Assembly (NCBI GenBank): GCA_938084715.1
Contig: CALKES010000009.1
Coordinates: 1-64,000, forward strand
DNA from: Candidatus Bipolaricaulota bacterium
GTDB taxonomy: Bacteria; Bipolaricaulota; Bipolaricaulia; Bipolaricaulales; Bipolaricaulaceae
Length of the DNA: 64,000 bases
Direction of reading: 5' to 3'
Made by a program: the position numbers and the translations under genes. This document shows, piece after piece, positions 1,920 through 16,326 of this stretch. A model generated the notes under the pieces. It was given only the letters and a program-made list of their open reading frames with translations. It searched no databases and was not told where the DNA came from. Every line of letters starts with the position of its first letter. Positions within the stretch are counted from its first letter, which is position 1.

Positions 1920-4900
1920 ATGAGGGAGGACATGCCGCGCCGGCGGAAAACGACGTGGGTGGTGGATTTCCTGCGGGAACTGCACCAGGGGAGGGATCTC
2001 CCCGGGCTGCTGGGACAGGTGTTGCGCCATGCGCTGAGCCTGGTCCCCGCAGCCCAGAGCGGGACCGTTCTCCTTCTCGACAAGGACGCAGGGGTCTTCC
2101 GGTTTGCGGCCGCCGAGGGATGGGACCTGGAGGCCCTCTCCCGGATTGCCATTCCCAAAGACCAATTCATCCAGAGCCGGCTTCCCCTTGACCGACCGTC
2201 GATCATCCGGAACCCCCTGGCCCAGAACGTCGCCCTCGTAGGGGAAGAACTGGCTGGGACCATCTCGGCCCTGGGATCGGTGACGGCAGTCCTATCCGCC
2301 CCCGTAACCGATGGAACAGAGCTCGTGGGGGTCCTCAACCTCGACAGTCGGGACGACCCAGAGGCCTTCACGGAGGCCGACGTGCGCCGCCTGGGTGCAG
2401 CGTGGGAGGAGATCGCCTTGGCGGTGGTCGCTGCCCGAAGCCAGGCCGGGCTCCGGGAGCGGGAGGAGCTCCTCCGGCTTCTGTTGGAGCGCTGGTCCGA
2501 CGGGGTGCTCATCGTCGCCCCCGATGGGACGATCCTAGAGGCCAACCCTGCGGCCGCACGCCAGACGGGCTACAGCCAAGATGACCTTCGGGGGATGAAC
2601 CTCGGTCAGCTCGTGGTCTCACCCGCGCCACTTCCCCTTGCGGACATCCTCGCCCGCCTGCGAGCGGAAGAAACCTTCGCCCTGGAGGTCGAAAAGCGGT
2701 GCAAGGACGGGACCACGGTCCGAGCCGAAGGCGTCCTGGCCCCCACGGAACACCAGGGGACACCCGCCCTGCTGTTCCTGGTCCGGCCCCTCGGGGATGA
2801 GCAGGCCAAGCGCCGGCAAGCCCTGGAGGCCCTGCTCCGGGCCCTCCCAGGCATCGCCGGAGCCCGCGACCCCCGGGAGGCGGTGGAGCGGATCGTCGCC
2901 GCGGCCCGGGAGATCGCCCACGCCGACCACGCCAATGTGCTCCTGTTCACGCCCAAAGGCGATCTCGCTCAGGTCTTCGATCCCCACGGCGCCCCGCCGA
3001 TCCCGGTCCGGATCCGAAGGGAAGGCTTCACCCGCTGGATCCTGGAGACGGGCCAACCGCTCATCCTCGACGACATCCGTCCCGACGGAACGACGTCCCC
3101 ACCCGTCCCCAACCGCGAGGGGAACCCGATCCCAGCGAGCCCGGTCCTCGTCCGGGAGGGCATCCGGTCCCTGGTGGGGCTCCCCCTGACCGTGGGAGGG
3201 GAGCGGCGGGGGATCCTCTACGTCCACAGCCGCCAGCCGGGGGGACTCCATGACCAGCTCCCCGTCCTCTCCCTCCTCGCCGCCCAGGCCGGGGTGGCGA
3301 TGACCAACGCCCTCCTCTTCCGGGACCTCCAGGAGCGGGAAGGGCGTCTGCAAACCCTGTTCGCCCTCTCCCCGGTCTCCCTGTTGATCGAGGACTTCTC
3401 CGCCGTTCGGGAGCGCCTGGAGGCGCTGCGGGCCCAAGGGGTAACCGACCTCCGCCGCTACCTCGAGGAACACGAGGGGTTTGCCGCCGCCACCGTGGCC
3501 CTCCTCCGGGTCATCGATGTAAACCAAGCTACCCTCGACCTGTACGGGGTGCGCGACCGGGACGACCTCCAGGGCCGCCTCCCCAGCCTCGTCCCCCCGG
3601 AGGCCCTTCCCCTGTGGATCGAGGAGCTCGTGGCGATCTGGGAGGGGCGGCCCTCGTTTGAGGGGGAGGGGGTGAACCGAACGGCGGATGGCCGCCCCCT
3701 CCACGTCCGGATCGGGTGGCGGGTCCTCCCCGGGCACGAGGAGCGCTACGATCGGGTGCTGGTTTCCGTCCACGACCTCACGGCCCGGGTGGAGGCGGAG
3801 GAGGCCCTGGCCCGGCGGGGGGCGGTGCTCCGCGCCGCGGCGTTCGCCGCCGAGACGCTCCTCCGCGAGCCATCCCTCCCGGCAGCGGTCCCCGCCGTGC
3901 TCGCCCGGCTGGGGGAGGCGGCCGGGGTGAGCCGGGTGTACGTGTTTGAGGAGAGCCGGGACGAACGGGGCCGGCCGCGGGTAAGCCAGCGGTACGAGTG
4001 GGTCGCCCCCGGGATCCAGCCCCAACAGGAGAACCCCGCTCTCCAGGACTTCCCCTACGCCGACGCCGGCTTCGCCCGGTGGGTGGAGGCGTTCGACCGG
4101 GGGGAGCCCATCCACGGCCGGGTCGCCGATTTCCCCGAGGAGGAGCGGCCGTTCCTCCAGGCCCAGGACATCCGGGCCCTGGCGGTGTTGCCGATTCAGG
4201 TGGGGGGGAAGCGGTGGGGGTTTGTCGGGTTCGACGACTGCGTCGGGGAGCGGATCTGGACCGAAGGAGAGCTCGACGCCCTTCGGATTGCCGCCCAGGC
4301 CCTGGGGGCAGGGCTGGAGCGGGCGGGGCTGGAAGAGGAGCTCCGCCAGCGGCAGGCGGAGCTGGCGGGGTTGTTTGGGGTCGCTGCCACCCTGGGGGAG
4401 GAGCTCGAGCTGGAGACGCTGCTGACCCGGGTCCACGCCCAGCTCGCCCCGGTCGTTCCCAGCGATGCGTTCCTGCTGGCGCTGGTGGAGCCCAACGGCC
4501 GCGAGCTGCGCCTGGCCTACGGAGTAGAGGACGGGGAGAGGCTTCCCCCGCTGGTGGTCCCCCTGGACCCGGGGGAGTCGCTGAGCGCCTGGGTGGCCCA
4601 CCACCGATCCCCCCTCCTCATCCGGGACGTCCCACAGGAGTGGGACCGGCTCCCCGCCCGAGCTAGGCAGGTCGGGCGGTTGGTCCGGAGCTGGGTCGGG
4701 GTCCCGCTCGTGGTCAAGGACCAAGTGGTGGGGGTCCTGTCCGTCCAGAGCTTTGCCCCGGGGGCGTTCAGCGAGGGCCACGTCCGGCTCCTTCAGGCGG
4801 CCGCCGCTCCGGTGGCGCAAGCGGTGCGCAACGCCCAGGCCTTCGCCGCCCTGGCGGGCCTGGAACAGAGGCTTCGCGCAGTGGAAGAGGCGTCCCGGAA

Positions 4901-6293
4901 GTTGAAGCTCGCCCACAACCGGGAGGATCTGTTCGGGACGACCCTGGACCTGGTGGGAGCGGTCCTCGGCTACGGGCCGTGCGCGATCCTCGCCCGGCAA
5001 GGGGAGGATCTGGTCGTGGTGGCGGCCCACCAGGAGCTCGTCTGGACCCAGGGGAAGCGCCTTCCCCTCCATGGCCCCGGGATCACCGTGGCCGCGTTTT
5101 GGTCCCGGGAGCCGGTGTACGCCCCCGACGTCCGGGCCGACCCGCGGTACGTCCCGGGCAACCCCACCACCCGCAGCGAGCTCGCCCTCCCCCTGGTGGT
5201 GGGGGAGGAGGTCCTGGGGGTCCTGGATGTGGCGTCCTCTGAGGTCGACGGGATCCCCCCCGAGGACCGCGAACTCCTGGGCATCCTTGCCTCCGGGCTG
5301 GCGGTTTCGTGGGCGGGCCTGGTGCGCCTGGAGCGCCTCGGGGATCTGAGCCGGAGGCTCGCCCGCCTCCATGAGGCCTCGCGGACCCTGTCCAAGGCCT
5401 CGACACAGGAGGAGGTTTGCGAGCAAGGGGTGCGGGCGCTGGTGGAGACCCTGGGCTTTGAGCACGCCAACATCGGGCTTGGCCAGGGGGAGCTCCTCGT
5501 CCCGGTGGCGGGGGCGGGAGCCCTCACGGGCGGGGCCCGGCCGTTCCGCCGCGGCGAGGGGATCGCAGGCCGGGTTTGGGAAACGAGGGCTGTCCTGTGG
5601 GGCAACCTCGACCAGTTCCCGTTTGCCCGACCCACAACTCCGGCCATCCAGTCCGTCCTGGCGGTGCCAATCGGGGACCTGGGGGTGATCCAGGTCGTCG
5701 CCACCCACCGGGACGCCTTCACCGCCGACGATGTCGAGCTGGTGGGGATCCTGGCCCGCCACGTCGAGCACGAGCTGCGGCGGGTCGAGCTCGAGGCGGA
5801 ACTCCGGGAGCAGGCGATCCGGGACCCCCTCACCGAGCTCTACAACCGCCGGTTCCTGACGGAGGTGCTGGCGCGGGAGGTGGAGCGGGCCAGGCGGTAC
5901 GGCCACCCCCTGACCCTGGTCCTCGCCGACATCGACGACTTCAAGCGGGTGAACGACCGGTACGGCCATGGGGCGGGGGACACCGCCCTCTGCGCCGTGG
6001 CCCAGTGCCTGCGGGAAAGCGTCCGCGCCGGGGACTACGTGTTCCGCTACGGGGGGGAGGAGTTCGTGGTCCTCCTCCCCGAGACCGGGAACGGGGGGAG
6101 CGACGTCGTCCGCCGCCTGGGGGACAAGCTGTCGGCGGTGGAGGTAGGGGGGGTGCCGGGCCTGAGGGTCAGCGTCAGCCTGGGCCACGTCACCTGGGAC
6201 CCGGGGCGGGACGGCCCGGCCAGCCCCGAGGACCTTCTTCAGCAGGCTGACTCTGTCCTGTACGAGATCAAGCGCCGCCGGGGAGGCCGGTGA
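1920..6293 (+). CDS. multi-GAF/PAS diguanylate cyclase (GGDEF)
   Basis: A 1457-residue sensor that should make cyclic di-GMP from two GTP. Rough order: GAF (25-165), PAS (190-285), GAF (300-467), a second PAS-like module (475-625), GAF (640-800), GAF (810-975), GAF (990-1135), GAF (1150-1295), GGDEF (1297-1457). The catalytic loop reads RYGGEEF near residue 1377. An RAGD inhibitory-site motif sits exactly five residues before it, so product feedback is expected. No transmembrane segment or signal peptide is seen, so it is probably a cytosolic receiver of several small-molecule or redox cues. The start may be ATG 1920 or the in-frame ATG 12 bases later. Three c-di-GMP riboswitches lie within 10 kb, making it the likely local signal source. 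No EAL or HD-GYP partner is visible here. Confidence 0.93.
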   Translation: MREDMPRRRKTTWVVDFLRELHQGRDLPGLLGQVLRHALSLVPAAQSGTVLLLDKDAGVFRFAAAEGWDLEALSRIAIPKDQFIQSRLPLDRPSIIRNPLAQNVALVGEELAGTISALGSVTAVLSAPVTDGTELVGVLNLDSRDDPEAFTEADVRRLGAAWEEIALAVVAARSQAGLREREELLRLLLERWSDGVLIVAPDGTILEANPAAARQTGYSQDDLRGMNLGQLVVSPAPLPLADILARLRAEETFALEVEKRCKDGTTVRAEGVLAPTEHQGTPALLFLVRPLGDEQAKRRQALEALLRALPGIAGARDPREAVERIVAAAREIAHADHANVLLFTPKGDLAQVFDPHGAPPIPVRIRREGFTRWILETGQPLILDDIRPDGTTSPPVPNREGNPIPASPVLVREGIRSLVGLPLTVGGERRGILYVHSRQPGGLHDQLPVLSLLAAQAGVAMTNALLFRDLQEREGRLQTLFALSPVSLLIEDFSAVRERLEALRAQGVTDLRRYLEEHEGFAAATVALLRVIDVNQATLDLYGVRDRDDLQGRLPSLVPPEALPLWIEELVAIWEGRPSFEGEGVNRTADGRPLHVRIGWRVLPGHEERYDRVLVSVHDLTARVEAEEALARRGAVLRAAAFAAETLLREPSLPAAVPAVLARLGEAAGVSRVYVFEESRDERGRPRVSQRYEWVAPGIQPQQENPALQDFPYADAGFARWVEAFDRGEPIHGRVADFPEEERPFLQAQDIRALAVLPIQVGGKRWGFVGFDDCVGERIWTEGELDALRIAAQALGAGLERAGLEEELRQRQAELAGLFGVAATLGEELELETLLTRVHAQLAPVVPSDAFLLALVEPNGRELRLAYGVEDGERLPPLVVPLDPGESLSAWVAHHRSPLLIRDVPQEWDRLPARARQVGRLVRSWVGVPLVVKDQVVGVLSVQSFAPGAFSEGHVRLLQAAAAPVAQAVRNAQAFAALAGLEQRLRAVEEASRKLKLAHNREDLFGTTLDLVGAVLGYGPCAILARQGEDLVVVAAHQELVWTQGKRLPLHGPGITVAAFWSREPVYAPDVRADPRYVPGNPTTRSELALPLVVGEEVLGVLDVASSEVDGIPPEDRELLGILASGLAVSWAGLVRLERLGDLSRRLARLHEASRTLSKASTQEEVCEQGVRALVETLGFEHANIGLGQGELLVPVAGAGALTGGARPFRRGEGIAGRVWETRAVLWGNLDQFPFARPTTPAIQSVLAVPIGDLGVIQVVATHRDAFTADDVELVGILARHVEHELRRVELEAELREQAIRDPLTELYNRRFLTEVLAREVERARRYGHPLTLVLADIDDFKRVNDRYGHGAGDTALCAVAQCLRESVRAGDYVFRYGGEEFVVLLPETGNGGSDVVRRLGDKLSAVEVGGVPGLRVSVSLGHVTWDPGRDGPASPEDLLQQADSVLYEIKRRRGGR

Positions 6294-6299
6294 GGGCCC

Positions 6300-9158
6300 T
6301 CAGGGGACCACCTCGACGAGGATCCCCAACCGGTCCGACTCCCCCTCGTCGTCGACCACGGTCAACGTCACGAGGTAGAACCCCGGGGAGGGGAACGTCC
6401 ACCGCGGGCGAGGCCCCTCCTCGTCGGCCTGTCCATCCCCGGTGAAGTCCCAGGCGTACGAGACGATGGCCCCCAAGGAGACGGAGGCGTCGAAGGCAAC
6501 TTCCTCTCCAACCCGCGGCAGAGCGGGCTCCCAGCGGAAATCGGCCAGGGGGGGGCGGTAGACAACGACCACGGGCCGTGGCTCAACGCGGAAGGCCACC
6601 TCCTCCACCGCTCCGGGGCCAAGGAGGACCTCCTGTTCGGCGGCGCCCACGAGGACCACGGCGGCCGAGAGGGTTGCCACGTCCACGCGGACCCGATAGG
6701 CTCCCGCGGGGAGGCCGGGCCAGGCGAACCGGCCAAGGGGATTCGTGAAGGCATCGACGGGTTCCCTCCCCTCCCCGTGGAGCACCACCCGAACCCCAGC
6801 CAGGCCGCGCTCTCCCTCGCCTTGGGTCCCGCCACCGTCGAGATCCTCGAACACAACACCGGCGATCTCCCCCAGCCGCTCGACGGGGAGGAAGACTGTT
6901 GTCCGGCCAGCGAGGACGACTTCCACTTCCACGGGAACCGGGACCCGCAGCCGCACCCCCTCCGGAAGGGACTCTACGGCGAGCGCGTAGCGTCCCGGGG
7001 CGAGGGGTGGGAAGACGAAGCGGCCGCCCCTCCCGGTAGCCACCTGGCCTCCCCCGGCCGAGAGCACCGCACCCTCCACCCCCGCCTCCCCTGGGTCGGG
7101 TTGATCGTCCCCGTCCTCGTCCACAAAGACCCGCCCCTCGAGCCAACCGCGGGCCGGGAGAAACGGGGGGGTGAGGGAGAAACGACGCTCAAAGCTGACT
7201 CCTAGCCGAAGCCAGCGAACTTCCCCTTGCCCCGTCCAGGCCACATCGAGCCGAAACCCCACCGCGGCGAGGGGGGACAAGGCCACGGGGAGGCCCACCC
7301 CCAACGCCCCCCCGCCTGAGGCAAAACGGGCAGTCAGGGTCAGGTCCCCGGGGATCCGGAGGTCAAGGTCCACTCCCCCGCCGAGTTCGGGGGGGCCCCC
7401 CCTGGGGACCCGCACGGCTTGGGTGAGGTTCAGGGACGCCTTGGTTCGGCCGAGGGTCAGGATCAGCCGCTGGCTGTACTCCTCGACCCGGACCGTGGTG
7501 GACAGGGCCTGGTCCTCCTCCCACCGCCAGCGGCCCCCGAGCCGGAGGAGGAGGGGGCTGTCCCCCAGAACCCCTCCGAGGTCCACGGTTCTCGTCCGCC
7601 AGTCCAGGGCCGGCCCGGAGCCCACGTTCTGGGTCCGGCGAAGGGAGAGCCCGGTGACCAGGGACAAGAGGGGAACGGGCGTCCAATCCGCAGCTACGGT
7701 CAGCTCAGATCGGGCCAGGGTCGGGCCGGGGGCGTTCGCCACGTTGTCCCGCTCCCACCGGGTATTGAAGCGAACCCCAATGGGCTGAACGCTCAGCTGA
7801 CCGCTGAGGGTGAACCCCATCCGGTCAGCCCGCGGGCTGGGGAGGCCGGGACCCACCGCGTAGGCCTCGAGGAGGAGCCCGGCTTGGGGAGCTTCCCCCG
7901 CGCTCGTTCGGAGAAGAACGGCCCCGTCAAGGGGCGGCCCCGCCAGGGCCGCCTCCAGCCCCAGGGTCCAGCCCTCCACCGGGAAGACCTGAACCCACGC
8001 CGCCCCACCCTGGGTCCCCCCGGTTACGGCCCGCAGGGCCAGGCCCAGTTCGGCCCACGGGAGCGTCCAAAGCCCCCGGGCCCCCCACTGACCCTCGTCT
8101 CCAATCCAGCCCGTGAGGAGTTCGACCCGTCCCGGATTCCCCCAGATCCCTCCCGCCATCCCCACCGCCCCCAGGGAGGTGAGGAGGGAACTCAGCGTCA
8201 GCTGGGTCTCCCCCACCTCGGCCCACACCCAGTCCCCCTCATAGCGGAGGAACCCCCGGGTCAGGCGGAACGGGGCGGGGCCCAACGGCCCCTCCCCGCG
8301 GAGGGCGAGGGCCACTCGCCCGCCCAGCACCTCCCCGTCGCCCCCCAGGGAGAGCTCGGACCGGACTTGCCCGGAGAGGAGGTCGAACCCCAGGGCCCCG
8401 CCCCCGGTCATCGCCAGCTCGGAGAGGATCGTCCCCACGATCGCCTCCGGCCCCGGAGGCAGGACCCGGGTCGGCCACGTCGCCCGGGCCTCGGCGCCCC
8501 CCTCCGACGTCACGACCACGGAGAGAAGCTCCCGGCCCGTCGGCGCCCCGGGGGGAATCGTCAGGACGACCTCCACCCGACCGGACTCCAGGGGGCGGAG
8601 GAGGAGCTCCCGGGGTGCGGTGCGGACCGGCCAGCCGCGGGCAGAACTGACCTCGATGAACAACCGGTCGATGGCGTTCCCCCGGTTCACCACCTCCAGG
8701 GTGTAGGTCACCGCGTCCCCGGGCTGACCCTGCTCAGACACCGGAGGGACCACGACCACATCGGCCACGGGGATCACCCGGACCTCGCCCTCCGCCGAGG
8801 CCGCCCCCCCCGGCCAGGACGCGTCAAGGCCCACCCGGTACCGCCCGGCCTCCGCACCCCGGGGAACGACAACGGCCAGAAACACGACTTCGTCCTCCCC
8901 AGGCCCAAGGACGACGGACGAGGGAACCCCCAGGTCCGTCCAACCGGCGGGCAGCGCGGCGGTCAACGCCACCGCCACCGTGGAAGGAGTCTCGTTTTGG
9001 AGAGCAAATGCATGCAGGGCGACCTCACCGGGGGAGACGGTGCGCGGGGGGGTGAGGACCTCGATCGTCACCGCCCCCACCGCCGCCTTCCCCCACACAC
9101 CGACCAACCCCAGGGCCACCGGGAAGAGCGTGGAGCGTAGCAAGCCGCGCCGCAGCAT
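6300..9158 (-). CDS. secreted beta-barrel protein with SdrD-like and PKD domains
   Basis: 952 residues. After a signal peptide (about 1-29) come two Ig-like NEW3/CARDB-type segments (30-240), a long region of alternating hydrophobic residues and turns that looks like an outer-membrane beta-barrel (about 240-680), two SdrD/Cna-B-like modules beginning GRVFVDEDGD (about 690) and GVVFEDLDGG (about 775), and a C-terminal PKD domain with the typical YAWDFTGDG signature (about 870-952). It is the last gene of the minus-strand surface cluster, after subunit-like and chaperone-like genes. That position matches the usher in archaic chaperone-usher operons, but I see no diagnostic usher motif. Alternatives are a porin-like anchor or an adhesin. 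Confidence 0.65.
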   Translation of the reverse strand: MLRRGLLRSTLFPVALGLVGVWGKAAVGAVTIEVLTPPRTVSPGEVALHAFALQNETPSTVAVALTAALPAGWTDLGVPSSVVLGPGEDEVVFLAVVVPRGAEAGRYRVGLDASWPGGAASAEGEVRVIPVADVVVVPPVSEQGQPGDAVTYTLEVVNRGNAIDRLFIEVSSARGWPVRTAPRELLLRPLESGRVEVVLTIPPGAPTGRELLSVVVTSEGGAEARATWPTRVLPPGPEAIVGTILSELAMTGGGALGFDLLSGQVRSELSLGGDGEVLGGRVALALRGEGPLGPAPFRLTRGFLRYEGDWVWAEVGETQLTLSSLLTSLGAVGMAGGIWGNPGRVELLTGWIGDEGQWGARGLWTLPWAELGLALRAVTGGTQGGAAWVQVFPVEGWTLGLEAALAGPPLDGAVLLRTSAGEAPQAGLLLEAYAVGPGLPSPRADRMGFTLSGQLSVQPIGVRFNTRWERDNVANAPGPTLARSELTVAADWTPVPLLSLVTGLSLRRTQNVGSGPALDWRTRTVDLGGVLGDSPLLLRLGGRWRWEEDQALSTTVRVEEYSQRLILTLGRTKASLNLTQAVRVPRGGPPELGGGVDLDLRIPGDLTLTARFASGGGALGVGLPVALSPLAAVGFRLDVAWTGQGEVRWLRLGVSFERRFSLTPPFLPARGWLEGRVFVDEDGDDQPDPGEAGVEGAVLSAGGGQVATGRGGRFVFPPLAPGRYALAVESLPEGVRLRVPVPVEVEVVLAGRTTVFLPVERLGEIAGVVFEDLDGGGTQGEGERGLAGVRVVLHGEGREPVDAFTNPLGRFAWPGLPAGAYRVRVDVATLSAAVVLVGAAEQEVLLGPGAVEEVAFRVEPRPVVVVYRPPLADFRWEPALPRVGEEVAFDASVSLGAIVSYAWDFTGDGQADEEGPRPRWTFPSPGFYLVTLTVVDDEGESDRLGILVEVVP

Positions 9159-9228
9159 CGCCCGAGGATGACGGGCCAGAGGTCCCCCCGGTAGGACGGG
9201 GGTGCATCGGCGAGGGGAAATCCTCCTG

Positions 9229-10233
9229 CTACGGCCTTGCTCGGGCCAGAAACGCCTTCAGGGACTCCACGTCCGCCGCGTCGACCCGGCCGCTGTTGTC
9301 GAAGTCAAAGGCCCGGGCGTTTCCCTGGACCCCGGGGGTATCCCAGGTTTGGGAGAACAGACGGACGTCCTCTTCGTCGAACACGCCGTTGCCATCTACA
9401 TCCTCGTGCAGACCGTCCCCGTCCAGGTCCTGGGGGACCCCCAACCCCGGGGCAAGGGGAACCAGATTCAAGGGCCGGACCCGCAGCGTGGCCTGCGCCC
9501 CTAGGATCTCCTCGCCCCCGAAGTCGACCCGGACCAGCACCACGTAGGTCCCAGGCCCAGGGCGGAGATCGGTCTCTGCCACGATCCACCGGACGCTCCC
9601 TGGGAGGGAGGGGACCGGCAAGGCCTCCACCCGGACGAGCTCCCGGCCCTGGGCGTCGTGGACTTGAACCTCGGCTCGGACCTCGCGGATGTGGACCAGG
9701 CCGGAGTTGACAAACTCCAGGGTCACCCACAGGGGGTTGAGGCCCCGGACCTCGAGCTTCCGCACGGTCCCCTGGGGCCGCGGGCTTCCCACCGTGGCGT
9801 ACACCTTGATCCCAATCCGCTTGGCCACCATCACCGTCGTTCCCCCGTACTCCACAGGCCGAGGCTCGCCGTGAACGAAGACGATCCCCCAGTACGTTCC
9901 GGCGGAAACTCCGGCGGGGACCGTCACAACTCCCCGGATCTCCCGGGCTTCCCCTGGACCCAGAACAAACGCGGCGGGTCCCACGGTGATCCACGGGGCC
10001 AGAGAGCGAGGGAGCGTTCCTGGTGGGTAGAACCTGTTCTCCCCCCACTCGTCCCGATCCCAGTCCCCGGTGTACAGGCCCAACCGCTCAGGGATCGTCA
10101 GCTCGTTGCGAACGACGAAGGAAAACTCATAACGTCCCCCGGGAGCCACGGCGAGATTGACCTCAAGCAGATTGACCTCGAGGGCCAGTCCCCCGAGGGA
10201 AAGGGCGCACACCAAAATTCCCAGGTATCTCAT
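9229..10233 (-). CDS. secreted Ig-fold chaperone/WxLIP-like protein with dockerin
   Basis: 334 residues. A short signal peptide precedes two Ig-like domains (about 20-260) with features of DUF916/WxL-interacting or PapD-type proteins: 'SFVVRNE', then 'VTVPAGVSAGTYWGIVF', then a VEVRG-like second domain. The last ~66 residues form a type I dockerin-like pair of calcium loops (DLDGDG... and DFDNSGRVDAADV). Dockerins bind cohesins; none is visible in this window. Its position, downstream of three small beta proteins and upstream of a barrel, suggests it handles or anchors those proteins outside the cytoplasm. A TATAAT box lies nine bases before the ATG, so an extra leaderless transcript is likely in addition to operon read-through. 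Confidence 0.7.
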   Translation of the reverse strand: MRYLGILVCALSLGGLALEVNLLEVNLAVAPGGRYEFSFVVRNELTIPERLGLYTGDWDRDEWGENRFYPPGTLPRSLAPWITVGPAAFVLGPGEAREIRGVVTVPAGVSAGTYWGIVFVHGEPRPVEYGGTTVMVAKRIGIKVYATVGSPRPQGTVRKLEVRGLNPLWVTLEFVNSGLVHIREVRAEVQVHDAQGRELVRVEALPVPSLPGSVRWIVAETDLRPGPGTYVVLVRVDFGGEEILGAQATLRVRPLNLVPLAPGLGVPQDLDGDGLHEDVDGNGVFDEEDVRLFSQTWDTPGVQGNARAFDFDNSGRVDAADVESLKAFLARARP

Positions 10234-10242
10234 CGCGGGCGC

Positions 10243-10248
10243 ATTATA
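10243..10248 (-). promoter_or_regulatory. -10 box TATAAT, near-leaderless
   Basis: A perfect TATAAT on the minus strand ends nine bases before the ATG at 10233. The transcript would start within a few bases of the start codon, without room for a Shine-Dalgarno site. Confidence 0.55.
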
Positions 10249-10254
10249 CGGCCC

Positions 10255-11169
10255 TTACGGGGCGACGAGGGTGTAGGTGAAGGAAAGCTGGTACGTTCCA
10301 GGGGAGGTCGTCTCGTAGTCCACCCTCACCCGGAACGTGACCTCAATCCACAGTCCAATCCCCGCTGTACCCTTCGCAACCTGGGTTTCAGCAATGGCGA
10401 GTGGAGTGAACGTCGTGCGGGGTACCGTGACCCCGGGCCCAGCCGCGCTCACCCTCCACTCGAGGTGGCCGCAGGGCTTCGCCAGGGCGGGAAACGAGCC
10501 CGTGTAGAGCCAGGTTGGGCTATCTGCGGCCACGGAGACGATCCACGCCCGGTTGCTCGTCACCGTGATCCGCTGGACTCCGGACCACTCCGCCCAGCCT
10601 GCGTCGTAGTGGGCAAGGGTGAGGGAGCCGAAATCGACCACCTCCGGGGCGACGGTGAGGCTCCCGGGAAGTTCGGCCCGGTAGTAGACACGGACAGCCA
10701 CCCAGTCAAGCCGAACGGCGTTGACCGCCCAAAGGCGAACCAGGAGGGCCCCCCACCCCACCTCGGCTGGGGTCCACGTGCGCCCCCAGAGGTTTGTGGG
10801 CCCGCCCACGGTGAGCTCTCGCCACGCCCCGGTGAACGGGCCAGCCTGATGGCCCGTCGCGGTCCAGCTGGCACCCCCGTTCCACGAAAGTTCGACCTCA
10901 AGGGAGGCGTTGGTAACCCCATCCTTCTTGGCCCGGAGGAGGACCTCGATCCCCACGATCTCCACCTCCCCGGGAAGGGAAACAGCAAAGCCACCGTAGT
11001 GGTGGACTGCGCCACCGGCCCCGACCGCGTAGAGGTTGTCCCGAAAGTAGCCCCGAGGGCCGTTCTGGAACTTCCCGTAGTCAAGGTTGGGGTTGACCCA
11101 AGGGGTGCTCTGGGCTGCCCCCCCGAGCCCCACACCGAGTACAAGGATTCCCAGGAGCCTCAGGCCCAT
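10255..11169 (-). CDS. secreted beta protein, WxL/pilin-subunit-like
   Basis: 304 residues from the ATG at 11169, where a clean signal peptide (MGLRLLGILVLGVGLGGAA) begins; the frame is open further upstream. The first half is a jelly-roll-like region with 'LDWVAVRVYY'. The second half (about 185-304) repeats the domain of the next protein upstream: 'VVDFGSLT', then 'VTSNRAWIVSVA', and a C-terminal 'YQLSFTYTLVAP'. The conserved Trp after the SN pair and the terminal TYTL strand recall WxL domains, and the xDFGxL strand recalls spore-coat-U/Csu-type subunits. Homology to either is inference. It belongs to the c-di-GMP-controlled surface cluster; a GC-rich hairpin precedes it. Confidence 0.65.
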   Translation of the reverse strand: MGLRLLGILVLGVGLGGAAQSTPWVNPNLDYGKFQNGPRGYFRDNLYAVGAGGAVHHYGGFAVSLPGEVEIVGIEVLLRAKKDGVTNASLEVELSWNGGASWTATGHQAGPFTGAWRELTVGGPTNLWGRTWTPAEVGWGALLVRLWAVNAVRLDWVAVRVYYRAELPGSLTVAPEVVDFGSLTLAHYDAGWAEWSGVQRITVTSNRAWIVSVAADSPTWLYTGSFPALAKPCGHLEWRVSAAGPGVTVPRTTFTPLAIAETQVAKGTAGIGLWIEVTFRVRVDYETTSPGTYQLSFTYTLVAP

Positions 11170-11195
11170 GGTCCGCCTTCCGTGACAAGAGACCA

Positions 11196-11227
11196 GGGGG
11201 CAGCCCTGGTGGGCCAGAGCTGCCCCC
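11196..11227 (-). other. intercistronic GC-rich hairpin
   Basis: GGGGGCAGC and GCTGCCCCC form a 9-bp stem, extended after one mismatch by CTGG/CCAG. It lies between two paralogous secreted-protein genes. There is no U tract, so it is more likely an mRNA stability or processing element than an intrinsic terminator. Confidence 0.5.
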
Positions 11228-11240
11228 ATTCTGTGTTCCA

Positions 11241-11744
11241 TCACGGGGCCGTGAGCGTGTAGGTGAAGCCCAGGGTGTAGTCCCCTGGGAGGTCCTCAGC
11301 CCAGTCCACCAAAAGCTCGAAGGCGAACTTGACGGCGATGTTGCCTCCCCGGGACCCCGTGGCCGCCTGAGTAGCGCCCAGGGTCAGCGCGGTCCAACTC
11401 CCCTGGTACCACGTCACCCGGGAGTCCACCGCGACCACCTGCCACCGCAGGTCCGTGGACGGCTTGGCCCACGGGCCCGTCCAGGTGGCACTCGTGGCGG
11501 CAACGGAAAGGCTCCAATCTCGGTTGCTCCACACCCGGACTTCCTGCGGATTCAACGCGTCCTTGCGGCCAGCGTCGAAGTCCGCGTCGGTCAAGGTCCC
11601 AAAGTCCACGATCGCGGGATACACCGTGAGCCGAATCAGCGTCGGCACAGTGAACTGCGCCGTCGAACCCTGGGATACCTGCCCCATTCCCATCACGCCC
11701 ACGATCAGCCCCAATGCCAGAATTCCTACAACACGAACCTTCAT
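11241..11744 (-). CDS. small secreted beta protein, WxL/pilin-subunit-like
   Basis: 167 residues with a signal peptide (MKVRVVGILALGLIVGVMG). The mature part carries 'TVPTLIRLTVYPAIVDFGTL', 'RVWSNRDWSLSVAA' (a literal W-x-L) and the C-terminal 'YTLGFTYTLTAP'. It is paralogous to the C-terminal half of its downstream neighbour and more distantly to the gene starting at 12481. The start has a strong Shine-Dalgarno GGAGGT six bases upstream, which is the target of an upstream c-di-GMP riboswitch and sequestering hairpin. The likely role is a polymerising or wall/outer-membrane-associated surface subunit; no enzymatic motif is visible. Confidence 0.7.
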   Translation of the reverse strand: MKVRVVGILALGLIVGVMGMGQVSQGSTAQFTVPTLIRLTVYPAIVDFGTLTDADFDAGRKDALNPQEVRVWSNRDWSLSVAATSATWTGPWAKPSTDLRWQVVAVDSRVTWYQGSWTALTLGATQAATGSRGGNIAVKFAFELLVDWAEDLPGDYTLGFTYTLTAP

Positions 11745-11749
11745 CCCTG

Positions 11750-11791
11750 CACCTCCAAGAAAGTTTGAATGTACTGCGTTTCTTGGAGGTG
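11750..11791 (-). promoter_or_regulatory. Shine-Dalgarno-sequestering hairpin (riboswitch expression platform)
   Basis: In the minus-strand mRNA, CACCUCCAAGAAA (plus 11779-11791) is perfectly complementary over 13 bases to UUUCUUGGAGGUG (plus 11750-11762), with a 16-nt loop. The second arm contains the GGAGGU ribosome site of the gene at 11744. The first arm overlaps the 3' strand of riboswitch stem P1 (ACACCUC), so the two pairings exclude each other. Confidence 0.75.
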
Positions 11792-11874
11792 TTTCGGCAG
11801 CCCAGCCATCTCCCTGGGGGAGATCTGTGGCTTTGCGCCCCCGGGTCGCCCCGGGTTTGCCCGTTCGACACCTC
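11786..11874 (-). promoter_or_regulatory. cyclic di-GMP-I (GEMM-I) riboswitch no. 3
   Basis: The minus-strand RNA has the GEMM-I hallmarks in order: GGGCAAACC, a hairpin capped by a GCGA (GNRA) tetraloop, GGGGCGCAAAGCC, a P3 stem AUCUCCC/GGGAGAU, and GGCUGGGCUGCCG. Stem P1 is GAGGUGU/ACACCUC. The G equivalent to Vc2 G20 (inside GGG before CAAACC) is present by hand alignment, which favours c-di-GMP over cGAMP. It controls the secreted subunit gene starting at 11744. Because P1 captures the anti-Shine-Dalgarno ACCUCC, ligand binding should free the ribosome site, predicting a translational ON switch. Confidence 0.88.
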
Positions 11875-12010
11875 GCAGTTGCTCTTCCAACCTGCTCCTG
11901 CTGCGTTCTCCTGCCCCATCACCTCCCTTCAGTTGCCGCATGATGCAGCCCGCACCGGCGGGCCCTCGGCCACACAATCAGATCACCTACTTCTCCCCTC
12001 CAGCTAACCT

Positions 12011-12481
12011 CTAGCCTTCGATCCTGCAGACAAGGGGAACCACGCGCCCAGGATCTCCATCGACCAGGGAAAGGTCAACCCGGAAATGAACCAACAGCGC
12101 ATGGGCGCCAGGCCCCCCCCCGGCCAGCACGGTCCCGTCGTCGCCCACCACCCGGTACGGGCCCCTGCCCACCCAGACCGCAACCGCTCCTGCCCATCGC
12201 GGATCCGAAACCCAAACCCGCACCCTCCACTGGATGTTGCTGTGGACAATAACCGGGACCGGCTCCGCTAGCTCCGCCCATCCCCCACGGCCCTCGCCCA
12301 ACCCACCCAGGTCGACCCCGATGGTGACCTCCCGACCCGAGAGGCCCGTCCCCGGCAGCGTGATTCGACCGATTGCAGGAACCGTGACGCTGGCTTGAGC
12401 CGGGACGCCCACGCTCCCGGCCCAGCCCGCACCTCCCCGCACGCAGGCGAGCACCATCAGCGCCAACGCTAGTCTGGACAC
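12011..12481 (-). CDS. small secreted beta protein, first gene of surface cluster
   Basis: 156 residues from a GTG at 12481; the frame extends upstream through the riboswitch, but that part translates the RNA element and is not protein-like. A signal peptide (VSRLALALMVLACVRG) is followed by 'VTVPAIGRITLPG' and 'VIVHSNIQWRVRVWV', which parallel the TVP...RLTV strand and the SN-x-x-W motif of the two downstream secreted proteins. It is therefore a divergent third paralogue. No Shine-Dalgarno is obvious; the start codon lies at the 3' edge of riboswitch stem P1, so ligand-dependent folding could directly mask or expose it. Confidence 0.6.
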   Translation of the reverse strand: MSRLALALMVLACVRGGAGWAGSVGVPAQASVTVPAIGRITLPGTGLSGREVTIGVDLGGLGEGRGGWAELAEPVPVIVHSNIQWRVRVWVSDPRWAGAVAVWVGRGPYRVVGDDGTVLAGGGPGAHALLVHFRVDLSLVDGDPGRVVPLVCRIEG

Positions 12482-12562
12482 GCTTCGGCAACCCGGCCAT
12501 CCCCGAGGGACCCGTAGGCTTTGCGCCCCCACGTTGCCGTGGGTTTGCCCTTGTCGGACGGT
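12480..12562 (-). promoter_or_regulatory. cyclic di-GMP-I (GEMM-I) riboswitch no. 1
   Basis: The minus-strand RNA reads GACAAGGGCAAACC, hairpin CACG-GCAA-CGUG (GNRA loop), GGGGGCGCAAAGCC, a P3 region and GAUGGCCGGGUUGCCGAAGCG, matching the GEMM-I core in order. It sits between a good promoter (TTGACG-16-TATAAT) and the GTG start at 12481. A short 5' GACA can pair with the UGUC that contains part of the start codon. The expression platform is less clear than in no. 3, so I do not assign ON or OFF. Confidence 0.88.
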
Positions 12563-12613
12563 CGTCCCTTATAGCTGCCTGGCGCCACCTCCCGGTCAAA
12601 CCAAGTGTCCTCA

Positions 12614-12641
12614 ATTATATTCACCTTGCCCTTGCCGTCAA
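12614..12641 (-). promoter_or_regulatory. promoter TTGACG-16-TATAAT of surface cluster
   Basis: Minus-strand TTGACG and TATAAT are separated by 16 bases inside an AT-rich island, unusual for this GC-rich sequence. The predicted start near 12607 gives a ~125-nt leader holding GEMM-I no. 1. Confidence 0.75.
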
Positions 12642-12802
12642 GTGTTTGACGTACCTTTGGGAGATCGATCCCGGTCGGCCCTTGGGCCCTGTCCTCCCAA
12701 GGATAGAATCGAGCGCGGCTCACGTCATGGTCGGGACTTGGAGGGATAGCAGTGGAGCAGGGAGGCCGGGGCACTTCCGGCCCACATGAGGAAGCGTCAA
12801 CG

Positions 12803-13390
12803 GTGAGGATCCGCAGAGCCAGCACAGACGATCTCGCGGCGCTCGCCGCAATCGAGGCGCGGAGCTTCCCCGATCCCTGGCCGCCGGAGCTCCTCGGGGG
12901 GTACCTCGAGGACCCCCAGGCGGTGGTCCTCCTCGCCGAAGATCGAAAGCCCCTGGGGTTTCTAATCGCTAGACTGGAGCGCCGGGGCCGGGAGAGGTCC
13001 TTCCACATCCACGACCTGGCCGTGGATCCCGCGCACCGCGGACACGGTACAGGTCGAGCCCTGGTGCGGGCGCTCGCCTCCACGGCCCGGCGGCGGCGCG
13101 TTCCCCGGGTCCTCCTCGAGGTGCGGGAGGGGAACACCGCAGCGCAGGCGCTCTACAGGACCCTGGGGTTTCGGGTCATCCACCACCTCCCGAACTACTA
13201 CGAGGACGGGGAGCCTGCCCTACGGATGGAACTTGACCTTGGGCTCCCTAGGGGCCCGGCGTCGGAGCGAGGGAGAGGACGAGAAGCATCACCCCCGCCC
13301 ATCCGGCCACCATCGCCAGAGCCAGCAGCTGGGAGGAAAGCAGCCGACCGCCTCGACGGAGCCGAAGGAAGAGCAGGCCCAGGGCCATGA
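12803..13390 (+). CDS. rimI: GNAT acetyltransferase, RimI-like
   Basis: A GNAT-fold enzyme; RimI-type members acetylate protein N-termini such as that of S18. Motif A is intact ('VDPAHRGHGTGRALV', acetyl-CoA binding) and motif B follows ('NTAAQALYRTLGF', 'NYYEDGEPALRMELDL'). I chose GTG 12803 (GAGGAAG site upstream) over an in-frame GTG at 12752, since the fold begins at once with VRIRRAS. The RimI-length domain ends near residue 150; the remaining ~46 Pro/Arg/Gly-rich residues are read antisense to the exchanger gene and look like run-through. A TAGAAT box at 12704-12709 may be the promoter. RimI and other GNAT functions cannot be told apart here. Confidence 0.75.
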   Translation: MRIRRASTDDLAALAAIEARSFPDPWPPELLGGYLEDPQAVVLLAEDRKPLGFLIARLERRGRERSFHIHDLAVDPAHRGHGTGRALVRALASTARRRRVPRVLLEVREGNTAAQALYRTLGFRVIHHLPNYYEDGEPALRMELDLGLPRGPASERGRGREASPPPIRPPSPEPAAGRKAADRLDGAEGRAGPGP

Positions 13391-14255
13391 GGAGCACCGC
13401 TCCCACCCCCGCCGCCACGTGGGACCGGTCCAGGAAGGCGAAGATCGGTCGCCCGTAGAAGAGATCGGCCAGGCCGAGGATCGCCACGTTGAACGCACAG
13501 CTTCCGTATACGTTCCCTAGGGCCATCTCCTCCGACCCAAGCCGGAGGGACCCCCAGGTCACGCTCGTCTCGGGCATCGTCGTCACCAGGGCCACGGCGA
13601 GGACCCCCATGAAGCTCCCCGACAGCCCGAGGAGATCCGCCAACCGGTCGGCGCTGGCGGCGAGGAGGGGGGCCCCGACGAGGACTCCCGCGGCAGCCAG
13701 GGCGAACTTGAGCCACGCCCGACGCCGTTCGCGCCCCTGCCCGTTCGCCTCCCGGCCCGCCTCGGACTCCGCCGGCCGGGCGCGGTAGACCGCCCGCATG
13801 CCCACAGCGTACCCCCCGAGGATGACCAGGGAACCCACGCTGATCGGTCCCGCGTTCCCCCAGTCATCGAGCAGCACCAGGCCGGTGGCGAGCGCGGTCA
13901 GCACGAGGGCGGTGACGACGAGGATCCGCTGGTCCCCCGTGACCGGGCGAACCACCACCTTCGGAAAGAGGCTTACCAGGGATACAAGGACCACCGCGTT
14001 GAGCATGTTGGCCCCGAGGATGTTCCCCCCGGCCAGGGCCGGCGCATTGAGCCGGACTGCGGACAGGTTCGTCACAAGCTCAGGAAGGGACGTGGCGATG
14101 GCGAGGAGAATCGTCCCCACCCACAGCCGTCCCAGGCCCGTGGCCTCGGCAATGCGGTCTCCAGCCCGGGAGAGGCTCAACCCGCTCCGGATCACGACGG
14201 TCGCGCTCGCCGCGAACACCAGGAACCAACCAACAAGGGGAATCACGGGGCGCAC
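13248..14255 (-). CDS. sodium/calcium exchanger family protein (CaCA)
   Basis: A membrane antiporter of the CaCA family with two inverted alpha repeats: alpha-1 'AIATSLPELVTNLSA' and alpha-2 'LVTTMPETSVTWGS' followed by 'GNVYGSCAFN'. These acidic (E) and Ser/Thr residues form the cation site. About ten hydrophobic segments flank a cytosolic Arg/Glu-rich loop (roughly residues 160-185). The start is set at GTG 14255, where the first membrane segment begins (VRPVIPLVGWFLV); the frame is open to about 14366 but the extra residues are charged and unlike the family. Its 3' end overlaps the convergent acetyltransferase by about 140 bases. The exact ion (Ca2+ or another) is not predictable. Confidence 0.85.
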   Translation of the reverse strand: MRPVIPLVGWFLVFAASATVVIRSGLSLSRAGDRIAEATGLGRLWVGTILLAIATSLPELVTNLSAVRLNAPALAGGNILGANMLNAVVLVSLVSLFPKVVVRPVTGDQRILVVTALVLTALATGLVLLDDWGNAGPISVGSLVILGGYAVGMRAVYRARPAESEAGREANGQGRERRRAWLKFALAAAGVLVGAPLLAASADRLADLLGLSGSFMGVLAVALVTTMPETSVTWGSLRLGSEEMALGNVYGSCAFNVAILGLADLFYGRPIFAFLDRSHVAAGVGAVLLMALGLLFLRLRRGGRLLSSQLLALAMVAGWAGVMLLVLSLAPTPGP

Positions 14256-14700
14256 CTCGCCGACGGCTTTCGGCTCACGGGCCCCGATCTTCTCCGCTTC
14301 GCCTGCCACCCGCAAGGCCTTGGCCCCAGACCCCACCTGCGGCATCGAGGGCCCACGCCGGGGCAAATAGGGTGGCAGACCGCTCGGAAGTTCGCCGCGC
14401 CAAGCTCCTCCAGCCCCGGCAGCAAGGATTCGTCACCCGCACGATCTCCACCTCCCGCAGCCTGAACGGGACGTCCGTCGAAGGAGGAGGAAGAGAAGCA
14501 GACCTCCGGTCAGGAGATCGCTATCCCCACAGGGGCTGGGAGACGACCGTTGCTACCTGCGGAGCCGGCGTGTGAAGCAGACCCAGCACGTGGAGCAGTC
14601 AGCAAACCTGGGTCCTCCACGATCACTTCCTGCAGCGAGCCTACGCTGGGAACCCAGCTGCCCTCCGGCTCACCACCGGGCTCTCAAGCCCTTCTCGGGC
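14256..14700. other. 445-bp region with no recognised gene
   Basis: This holds the exchanger's upstream DNA (possible N-terminal extension to about 14366) and the 3' side of the RHH-MshEN gene. I see no convincing coding frame, tRNA or strong terminator; short GC-rich frames on both strands lack protein character. Confidence 0.4.
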
Positions 14701-15024
14701 TCATCTAGCTCCGGCATACCGGCCCTGCACCACCAGGGCCCGTCGCACGAGCTCATCCTGGACGCTCCCCTTTTCGACGAGGATCTCGCCCAACTTTCGG
14801 GGTCGACCGCCCGCGCGCTGCTCCGCCAGCGCCTCCTCGACCTCCCGCACCGAAACCGCCCCCATGTCCACCAGGATCTCTCCCAGTCGCTTGCCGCGTT
14901 CGAAATATTCCTCCAGGATCGACATGATCACCGCCGAACGCGACTTACGCTGCTGCTCCGCGAGCTGATCCACCAGCTCCAGGAGGTAACGGTCTTCGCC
15001 GCTGTAGTACAACGTCACCTGCAT
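14701..15024 (-). CDS. RHH DNA-binding domain fused to MshEN c-di-GMP-binding domain
   Basis: 107 residues. Residues 2-43 fit a ribbon-helix-helix (CopG/Arc-type) fold: strand VTLYYSGED, helix A, turn RKSRSA, helix B 'VIMSILEEYF'. Residues 46-100 are a tandem repeat matching the MshEN/GspE-N nucleotide-binding motif: RLGEILVDMGAVS...Q69 and KLGEILVEKGSVQ...Q100, with the hallmark LG, L/V, G and terminal Q. In type II secretion and pilus ATPases this module binds c-di-GMP; here no ATPase follows. The simplest reading is a small c-di-GMP-responsive transcription factor. It is monocistronic, and its mRNA carries a c-di-GMP riboswitch, so the same ligand would act on both RNA and protein. Target sites are unknown. 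Confidence 0.75.
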   Translation of the reverse strand: MQVTLYYSGEDRYLLELVDQLAEQQRKSRSAVIMSILEEYFERGKRLGEILVDMGAVSVREVEEALAEQRAGGRPRKLGEILVEKGSVQDELVRRALVVQGRYAGAR

Positions 15025-15066
15025 GCTACTGCCCTCCCCGCCCAGGACAAAACCGGGCTCCAGGTC

Positions 15067-15144
15067 ACCCTGGCAGCCCGGCTACCCGTTCTGGGCCCGT
15101 CGCTTTGCGCCCCCACGTTCCCGTGGGTTTGCCCTTTTCAGGGT
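15067..15144 (-). promoter_or_regulatory. cyclic di-GMP-I (GEMM-I) riboswitch no. 2
   Basis: The minus-strand RNA contains AAAAGGGCAAACC, hairpin CACG-GGAA-CGUG (GNRA loop), GGGGGCGCAAAGC, a P3 region and GGUAGCCGGGCUGCC; P1 is ACCCUG/CAGGGU. Just downstream, CCAGG-GUGA-CCUGG forms a hairpin that competes with the P1 3' strand. A GC stem then precedes the GGGGAGGG ribosome site of the RHH-MshEN gene. Core identity to the two other copies is very high. Confidence 0.88.
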
Positions 15145-15162: not shown

Positions 15163-15190
15163 AGTTTAGAGCCGCCCCGCCCTCCGTCAA
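15163..15190 (-). promoter_or_regulatory. promoter TTGACG-16-TAAACT
   Basis: Same -35 hexamer and same 16-base spacing as the promoter of riboswitch no. 1. It overlaps the stop codon of the upstream subtilase and would give a short leader consisting of the riboswitch. Confidence 0.65.
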
Positions 15191-16254
15191 GGGGACACCT
15201 GTCCCGATCCTTGTCCGTCGCCTCGGCGCGCCACGGTGGCGGGAGTGACGGCCCTCCCTGCATTCACCAGGCCGGTACCGCACCGTGGGTCGGCCCCTTC
15301 CCCCACCGGGCTCGCGCTTTGGAGGACGAGCTCCACGGCCTTGCTTTCCGCCAGGGTTGGATCGGCGGACACGATGAGGGCAAGGGTTCCGGTCACGTGG
15401 GGCGCGGCGAAGGAAGTCCCGCAGTGGCGGGCCTCCGTTCCGCCAGGGAGAAGAGAGGTCACCTCGCAGCCCGGGGCAGCGAGCGCCACCTCCGGTCCCC
15501 ACGAGCTGAACGGGGCCAGCCGGTCCGCGGTGTCGGAAGCGGAAACCGCGAGCACGGTGGGGTACCGGCCGGGGTAGAGAACCCCCGCTTTCCCCTCGTT
15601 TCCAGCAATTCCGACCACAATCACGCCGCAGGAGCCCGCGTAGGCGAGGGCTTGCTCCACAATCGCGGGCGGTTTCCCCTCAGCGTACAAGCTCAAGTTG
15701 ATGATCCTCGCTCCGTTGTCTAGCGCGTAGCAAAGGGCGCGGGCCAATGCGTCCCAGTCCCTGGTCGTAAACAGTCCGCGAGAGTCAAGGAACCGCACGT
15801 CCATGATCCGTACGCGCGGTGCCACACCGGTAAGGTTCCCCTCGCTGAACCGCCCGGCAACGATTCCCGCAACAAACGTCCCGTGCCAGTGAAGGGGGGC
15901 GACAGCGTGGGCCGGGACATCGTCCCGGAAGTCCCACCCGTAAGCATCGTCCCGGTAACCGTTTTCGTCATCATCCACGCCATTCCCAGGCACCTCCCCG
16001 GGGTTGGTCCAGGGGATGGCGGCGAGCTCGGGAAGGCTCCAGTCGATTCCGCTATCGATGATCGCCACCACGATCTCCGGTCTACCGGTGGTCCCGGGCC
16101 AGGCCTCCGGGGCACCGATGCGCTGTGGATTCCAGGGAAGGGAAATCCCGACACGGGGCAGCCCCACGCTGCCCACTCCCCCAGCCACCTCAGGGTGCCC
16201 CAAGGACGACCACCGCGATGGCCCAGCGCCATGCCAGCCCCTCGTGTGGTCCAT
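15187..16254 (-). CDS. subtilisin-like serine protease (S8)
   Basis: 355 residues with a complete catalytic triad: Asp in VVAIIDSGID, His in HWHGTFVAGI and Ser in GTSFAAPHVTG; the oxyanion-region 'GIAGNEG' is also present. Subtilases of this form are normally exported. No signal peptide is found in this frame, but a hydrophobic stretch 'WAIAVVVLGAP' appears in another frame at about 16200-16235, just before this frame becomes protein-like. The true N-terminus is therefore probably disrupted by a frameshift (real or sequencing). ATG 16254 is a formal choice. The gene has its own promoter and a folded leader and lies directly upstream of riboswitch no. 2. It may process the neighbouring secreted proteins, which is inference. 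Confidence 0.85.
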   Translation of the reverse strand: MDHTRGWHGAGPSRWSSLGHPEVAGGVGSVGLPRVGISLPWNPQRIGAPEAWPGTTGRPEIVVAIIDSGIDWSLPELAAIPWTNPGEVPGNGVDDDENGYRDDAYGWDFRDDVPAHAVAPLHWHGTFVAGIVAGRFSEGNLTGVAPRVRIMDVRFLDSRGLFTTRDWDALARALCYALDNGARIINLSLYAEGKPPAIVEQALAYAGSCGVIVVGIAGNEGKAGVLYPGRYPTVLAVSASDTADRLAPFSSWGPEVALAAPGCEVTSLLPGGTEARHCGTSFAAPHVTGTLALIVSADPTLAESKAVELVLQSASPVGEGADPRCGTGLVNAGRAVTPATVARRGDGQGSGQVSP

Positions 16255-16326
16255 GCGGCAGCCCGTCTGTCCCCGTGGGACCCAGAAGGGTCTGCCCTTG
16301 GCGTGGCCCGCCTCGCGGAGGACCAC
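16246..16326 (-). ncRNA. candidate structured 5' leader of the subtilase gene
   Basis: After a TATAAT box, the transcript has a perfect 7-bp closing stem GUGGUCC/GGACCAC. Inside are hairpin CCUC-CGC-GAGG, hairpin ACCC-UUCU-GGGU and pairing GGCAG/CUGCC. The GGGCAGACCC and CGGGCUGCCG segments resemble parts of the GEMM-I cores nearby, but the invariant CGCAAAGCC is missing. It could be a decayed GEMM-I copy or another leader element; possible start codons lie at its 3' edge. Confidence 0.4.

Follow-up and report, generated by a model that had tools for sequence, protein, structure and literature searches.

The 64,000-nucleotide stretch of Bipolaricaulota DNA analysed here (hereafter, the window) encodes a 107-residue protein that is probably a c-di-GMP-responsive ribbon-helix-helix (RHH) transcription factor, whose own synthesis would be induced by c-di-GMP through a riboswitch. 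Computation recovered both an RHH and an MshEN fold, conserved ligand-facing and DNA-facing residues, the riboswitch, and a terminator that overlaps it. The gene and its two halves are as follows.

14701–15024, minus strand: RHH-MshEN gene, ATG start, 107 amino acids, stop codon within these coordinates
14893–15024, minus strand: predicted RHH DNA-binding half, residues 1–44
14725–14889, minus strand: predicted MshEN c-di-GMP-binding half, motif 1 at residues 46–69 and motif 2 at residues 77–100

An RHH fold joined to an MshEN domain

The protein consists of an RHH fold (approximately residues 1–44) followed by a two-motif MshEN domain (residues 46–100). An AlphaFold2 model, calculated as a monomer with 65 homologues as input, had a mean pLDDT of 91.6, and contained an extended N-terminus and helices at residues 9–25, 29–42, 47–53, 59–71, 78–84 and 90–104. 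The fusion had been proposed in a first-pass annotation of this DNA, which named structure prediction as a means of overturning it; RHH and MshEN folds were both obtained with AlphaFold2 and Foldseek, and together with a match to the NCBIfam model NF053729 these confirm the proposal. The two MshEN repeats, previously placed at about residues 47–69 and 78–100, were located at 46–69 and 77–100, and the protein was correctly described as having no ATPase: both an ATPase domain and the MshEN C-subdomain are absent from the 107-residue open reading frame. No solved structure among the Foldseek matches listed from the PDB credibly covers both halves. An origin as a fragment of a type IV pilus ATPase is ruled out by the absence of the ATPase, by the conserved start, and by conservation of the RHH half in about 90 homologues.

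The MshEN half

The assignment of the C-terminal half to MshEN is firm. NF053729 (c-di-GMP_motif) matches residues 46–99 with E=6e-20 and 70.8 bits, against a cut-off of 38, and is matched by all 65 of the aligned family members. We compared the sequence with the published motif, RLGxx[LVI][LVI]xxG... LxxxLxxQ, which spans 24 residues and occurs in two copies with a short spacer. Motif 1 (residues 46–69, RLGEILVDMGAVSVREVEEALAEQ) fits the strict consensus, while motif 2 (residues 77–100, KLGEILVEKGSVQDELVRRALVVQ) has one deviation, S87 at a hydrophobic position; K77 replaces R as the first residue of motif 2, and the two motifs are separated by 7 residues instead of 5. In an alignment of 89 distinct full-length members, the published relaxed motif was present in 62, compared with 1 of 4450 shuffled copies.

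Placed on c-di-GMP-bound PilF GSPII-B (8pfa), the model agrees to an rmsd of 1.0 A over 56 columns (46% identity, Foldseek probability 1.00), and its MshEN half also matches MshE (5htl). A full-length profile found PilF, MshE and PilB as the only relatives in the PDB (best E=4e-20). Across the family, G48, L51, L66, Q69, G79, L97 and Q100 are near-invariant; the LG pairs, leucines and glutamines among them contact the ligand in MshE (PMC5013675) and PilF (PMC11731258). From these residues and the modelled fold, we predict that the MshEN half binds c-di-GMP.

It is quite unlikely that this half has degenerated into a structural or dimerisation module and lost c-di-GMP binding, leaving the riboswitch as the sole c-di-GMP input to an ordinary RHH regulator. 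The S87 deviation, a first residue of motif 2 that varies across the family, the loss of motif 1 G55 in roughly one member in four and the missing C-subdomain would all be compatible with degeneration, but the LG pairs, L66/L97 and Q69/Q100 stay near-invariant in a family whose identity ranges down to about 40%. Furthermore, K or L at the first residue of the motif gives tighter, not weaker, binding in PilF (PMC11731258), and the C-subdomain contact is dispensable in MshE (PMC5013675).

We additionally identified, in a congener assembled as a single contig (G004; locus L136, 4941–5165, minus strand), an in-frame deletion between two GEILV repeats that leaves a single MshEN motif, making this protein a natural half-site variant.

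The RHH half

The Pfam model RHH_1 scored 20.2 bits (E=5.8e-4) against the N-terminal half alone, below its cut-off of 20.5, and 17.2 bits against the whole protein, short of the gathering score; at E<0.01 it was found in 16 of 65 members. As the RHH_1 score lies below the Pfam cut-off, the assignment needed a test of fold. Foldseek matched the N-terminal half to Arc (1baz, probability 0.94) and DNA-bound CopG (1ea4, probability 0.92), with TM (target) of 0.73–0.81 and E-values of 1–2, which support an RHH at the level of fold only. A profile of this half retrieved CopG from the PDB at no better than E~1, so that the RHH call rests on fold and not on sequence. Further Foldseek matches were CdbA (6sbx, probability up to 0.75) and AmrZ, and the folds of TacA1 and VapB were also listed.

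Among the 93 family genes used for residue and upstream counts, the predicted ribbon carries Q2 in all 93, T4 in 91 and Y6 in 92, and this alternate-residue pattern fits that expected of a ribbon facing DNA. In the family alignment E38 is invariant, and D11, R26, S28 and S30 are invariant or nearly so. The AlphaFold2 model is a monomer, and the RHH dimer is therefore assumed. Fold and ribbon pattern together lead us to predict that this half binds DNA.

Two other functions of the RHH half were weighed. The protein could be a c-di-GMP-responsive nucleoid-associated protein resembling CdbA, binding many sites with modest specificity and altering chromosome compaction instead of acting at specific promoters. 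We consider this unlikely: there is precedent in CdbA, a small c-di-GMP-binding RHH protein that acts on the nucleoid (PMC7156744), whose structure the RHH half matches (6sbx, as above), but the invariant Q/T/Y triad of the ribbon suggests a specific site. The second function, an RHH antitoxin or plasmid-type partition regulator in which the MshEN domain would serve as a tail for binding a partner, is most improbable. Many RHH proteins of about 100 residues are antitoxins, consistent with the TacA1 and VapB folds in the Foldseek list; all aligned members, however, match the c-di-GMP motif model.

Distribution in Bipolaricaulota

At E<=1e-15, a search of 100 genomes found RHH-MshEN homologues in 69, nearly all of these proteins spanning both halves and nearly all coming from Bipolaricaulota/Acetothermia. 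A profile search gave matches in 73 of 100 Bipolaricaulota genomes, and in 31 of the 38 near-complete ones, a few of these being matches to MshEN only. The RHH half was absent from all 72 of the MshEN-encoding loci fetched elsewhere with the same query, and a viral scan returned two matches to the MshEN half only and no RHH-MshEN protein. The RHH-MshEN design is conserved across the little-studied Bipolaricaulota lineage. Paralogues number up to four or five in some genomes and the gene is missing from others, a distribution unlike that of an essential nucleoid protein.

A c-di-GMP riboswitch in the leader of the RHH-MshEN mRNA

The leader of the gene contains two overlapping RNA elements.

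15068–15142, minus strand: c-di-GMP-I-GGC aptamer (RF03167, 64.1 bits, gathering threshold 59) in the 5' leader of the RHH-MshEN gene
15048–15079, minus strand: terminator-like hairpin, GGGCTGCCAGG GTGA CCTGGAGCCC followed by GGTTTTG, its 5' arm being the 3' strand of the aptamer

The c-di-GMP riboswitch that had been claimed for the protein's own mRNA is real, its RF03167 score exceeding the gathering threshold, and the aptamer lies about 44 nucleotides before the start codon. Only three RF03167 matches lie above threshold in this genome, all of them inside the window; the genomes that carry the family genes have only about 1 to 16 each. On the same strand and no more than 400 nucleotides upstream, an aptamer precedes 53 of the 93 family genes, mostly at a distance of 40–70 nucleotides. 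The other 40 have none within 400 nucleotides, so that dual control is common in the family but not universal. Tandem GGC aptamers were observed upstream of two RHH-MshEN genes (L169, 1660–1940, minus strand; L188, 4693–4942, plus strand), which suggests stacked sensing in some members.

The 3' strand of the aptamer, GGGCUGCCAGG, can also pair with a downstream CCUGG(C)AGCCC, forming the terminator-like hairpin that is followed by U's. A terminator overlapping the aptamer 3' strand was identified in 38 of 54 family aptamers, compared with 1 of 58 aptamers of neighbouring genes and 9 of 270 shuffles; some f2 members of the family have the aptamer and lack the overlapping terminator. The aptamers of neighbouring genes mostly run directly into the ribosome-binding site, and RHH-MshEN genes clearly use a different expression platform. 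Since a ligand-stabilised aptamer and the terminator are mutually exclusive, c-di-GMP should switch the gene on; we predict an ON switch that acts on transcription.

The aptamer column G11 is invariant, and aligns with the c-di-GMP-contacting G20 of class-I riboswitches. Riboswitch variants of the cGAMP type carry an A at the equivalent position, and the conserved G points to c-di-GMP as the ligand. The protein might be as we propose and the riboswitch either not a simple ON switch or a sensor of another dinucleotide. This is quite improbable, given that the G20 equivalent is invariant where cGAMP-type variants have A, that the 5' arm of the terminator contains the aptamer 3' strand, and that the sole cyclase returned by a GGDEF search of the genome is a GGEEF-type enzyme. 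The suggested reading of the protein as a c-di-GMP-dependent regulator gains support from the predicted folds, from ligand-contact residues conserved in about 90 homologues, and from a conserved riboswitch on the mRNA.

Promoter and an adjoining palindrome

15163–15190, minus strand: sigma-70-type promoter of the RHH-MshEN gene, TTGACG-16-TAAACT
15192–15205, minus strand: palindrome GGGACAGGTGTCCC, abutting the -35 element and kept at the RHH-MshEN promoter within the same taxonomic family

The shared TTGACG-16 element, which had been put forward as a place to begin DNA-binding work, does recur at two of the three riboswitch promoters, where it forms the -35 and spacer, but it belongs to an ordinary sigma-70-type promoter and is not an operator. 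The palindrome, GGGACRN-ATGTCCC, lies 1–3 nucleotides upstream of the -35 at the RHH-MshEN promoter throughout the taxonomic family, except in one genus where it is about 10–11 nucleotides (one helical turn) further away. GGGACRNATGTCC is over-represented in the genomes relative to its reversed control. The palindrome persists in genomes without an RHH-MshEN gene (e.g. G009 and G017), and is absent in more distant members of the protein family that have the same ribbon residues. GGGAC-N4-GTCCC had the look of an autoregulatory operator, but we could not assign it to RHH-MshEN, as it is confined to a single taxonomic family and present in genomes lacking the gene. The nucleoid-protein explanation draws some support here, in that the palindrome could not be assigned to RHH-MshEN as a conserved operator.

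Within the genus, GGAC-RNR-TGTCC occurs upstream of many genes (e.g. L218, L226, L241 and L243), among them an ECF-sigma-like gene and one for a TauE-like transporter; in some cases TTGAC follows about 11–13 nucleotides downstream. As the palindrome is found in genomes without the gene and before unrelated genes, it may belong to another regulator, and its recurrence may mark the regulon of that separate regulator.

Genomic setting

The source genome is 1.38 Mb in size and 96% complete. The following features of the window surround the RHH-MshEN gene.

1920–6293, plus strand: GGDEF protein (PAS/GAF repeats plus GGDEF) with GGEEF and an RxxD I-site, the only GGDEF gene of the genome
11792–11870, minus strand: second GGC aptamer, before a 167-residue predicted exported protein
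12483–12558, minus strand: third GGC aptamer, at the start of a predicted exported protein (12011–12532)
15187–16326, minus strand: S8 subtilase gene, immediately upstream of the RHH-MshEN gene, with its own GGC riboswitch in relatives
16255–16305, minus strand: decayed c-di-GMP-I-GGC aptamer before the S8 subtilase gene

The GGDEF protein is presumed to be the source of c-di-GMP; GGDEF genes were found in 97 of 100 genomes of the class. No EAL domain scored above cut-off in the genome, and the only MshEN domain found is that of the RHH-MshEN protein. The sole GGDEF gene, the sole MshEN domain and the three intact GGC aptamers all fall within about 13 kb (1920–15142). The decayed subtilase aptamer has lost about 23 nucleotides of its core (the 3' side of P2 and GCAAAGCC), while at both ends it still aligns with the intact aptamers found in five relatives.

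In congeners, the RHH-MshEN gene is flanked on one side by an S8 subtilase gene and on the other by the gene of a large exported protein (LTD, Ig-like and DUF11-type domains), both of them under riboswitch control; in the window, this large exported gene was not found directly downstream. The RHH-MshEN gene is part of a riboswitch-controlled surface cassette, a location that argues against the nucleoid-protein explanation. The antitoxin explanation is likewise disfavoured, as the open reading frames read around the gene include no conserved toxin-like one adjoining it, and its neighbours are the subtilase, the large exported repeat protein and, in the window, an exchanger.

Three loci (L119, 5351–9232, plus strand; L123; L128) encode predicted exported proteins of about 1250–1600 residues with DUF11, Ig and LTD domains, riboswitch-controlled and directly downstream of the regulator, which are candidate c-di-GMP-controlled adhesins. 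A run of predicted exported genes in the window (6300–12532, minus strand) comprises PKD/SdrD-like, dockerin-bearing and unassigned members, two of them behind GGC aptamers.

Proposed mechanism

We infer c-di-GMP binding, DNA binding, the sign of the protein's action and its targets from the features above, and propose the following sequence of events. The PAS/GAF/GGDEF protein would make c-di-GMP, and transcription from the sigma-70-type promoter would run through the GGC-type aptamer. Binding of c-di-GMP to the nascent leader would stabilise the aptamer and block the terminator, turning RHH-MshEN synthesis on. The RHH half would dimerise, with Q2, T4 and Y6 of the paired beta-ribbon entering the DNA major groove, and the MshEN_N module of each subunit, with its two 24-residue motifs, would bind one c-di-GMP, shifting the MshEN modules and altering the affinity of the RHH half for its operator. 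The same ligand would then both induce and load the protein, giving a feed-forward or AND-type loop that could filter out brief pulses of c-di-GMP. The targets of the regulator are likely to be surface and attachment genes.

Relation to known systems and significance

Earlier reports place MshEN in ATPases, glycosyltransferases and a two-component response regulator (PMC5013675). With the MshEN/GSPII domains of Vibrio MshE and of Thermus PilF (GSPII-B), the window protein shares the two tandem 24-residue motifs, the fold at about 1 A and the ligand residues. Those domains have an ATPase (or glycosyltransferase) partner, whereas the window protein has an RHH, a 7-residue spacer and no MshEN C-subdomain.

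CdbA of Myxococcus is likewise a small RHH protein linked to c-di-GMP. It binds c-di-GMP through its RHH domain, other ligand-binding RHH proteins using extra domains (PMC7156744). In CdbA, a nucleoid protein, c-di-GMP on the RHH domain competes with DNA, in contrast to the separate MshEN module that follows the RHH here; the window protein is thus not an RHH-only member of the CdbA family, CdbA matching its RHH half only. NikR and the CopG/Arc/MetJ proteins have, like the window protein, an N-terminal RHH for DNA. In NikR the ligand is bound by a separate C-terminal domain; the sensor of the window protein differs in being MshEN, with c-di-GMP as its predicted ligand.

Vibrio tfoY resembles the present gene in having a c-di-GMP aptamer on a regulator mRNA. 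TfoY is not known to contain an MshEN-type c-di-GMP module, and the two differ in that here both RNA and protein are predicted to sense c-di-GMP. In Clostridioides difficile, an adhesin and a protease that sheds adhesins are both under c-di-GMP riboswitches (PMC6366702). The likeness to the subtilase and exported-protein cassette is one of logic only: riboswitch class, protease family and phylum all differ, and here a predicted c-di-GMP-binding regulator lies between the surface-protein and protease genes.

We found no description, in open-licence full texts, of MshEN fused to an RHH domain. The domains and the riboswitch class are known, and it is their combination that we did not find described. 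With somewhat less confidence than for the protein itself, we favour the view that RHH-MshEN proteins are lineage-wide one-piece transcription factors, the first to be based on MshEN, with c-di-GMP gating their synthesis through an antitermination riboswitch and their activity through the protein. One signal appears to control both the amount and the activity of the regulator.

Many makers and few receptors of c-di-GMP are known, and descriptions of MshEN have centred on its control of pilus and secretion ATPases and of glycosyltransferases. If our reading is true, a length of 107 residues would make this protein roughly the smallest modular c-di-GMP transcription factor, and a handy one for biosensors and structural studies. 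Dual gating by one second messenger could then be tested directly, since a single transcript would carry both an RNA and a protein sensor and the 1.4-Mb genome has one recognisable cyclase gene. In the smallest genomes, one cyclase, one regulator and a few riboswitches would, if this is true, account for most of the c-di-GMP network that can be recognised.
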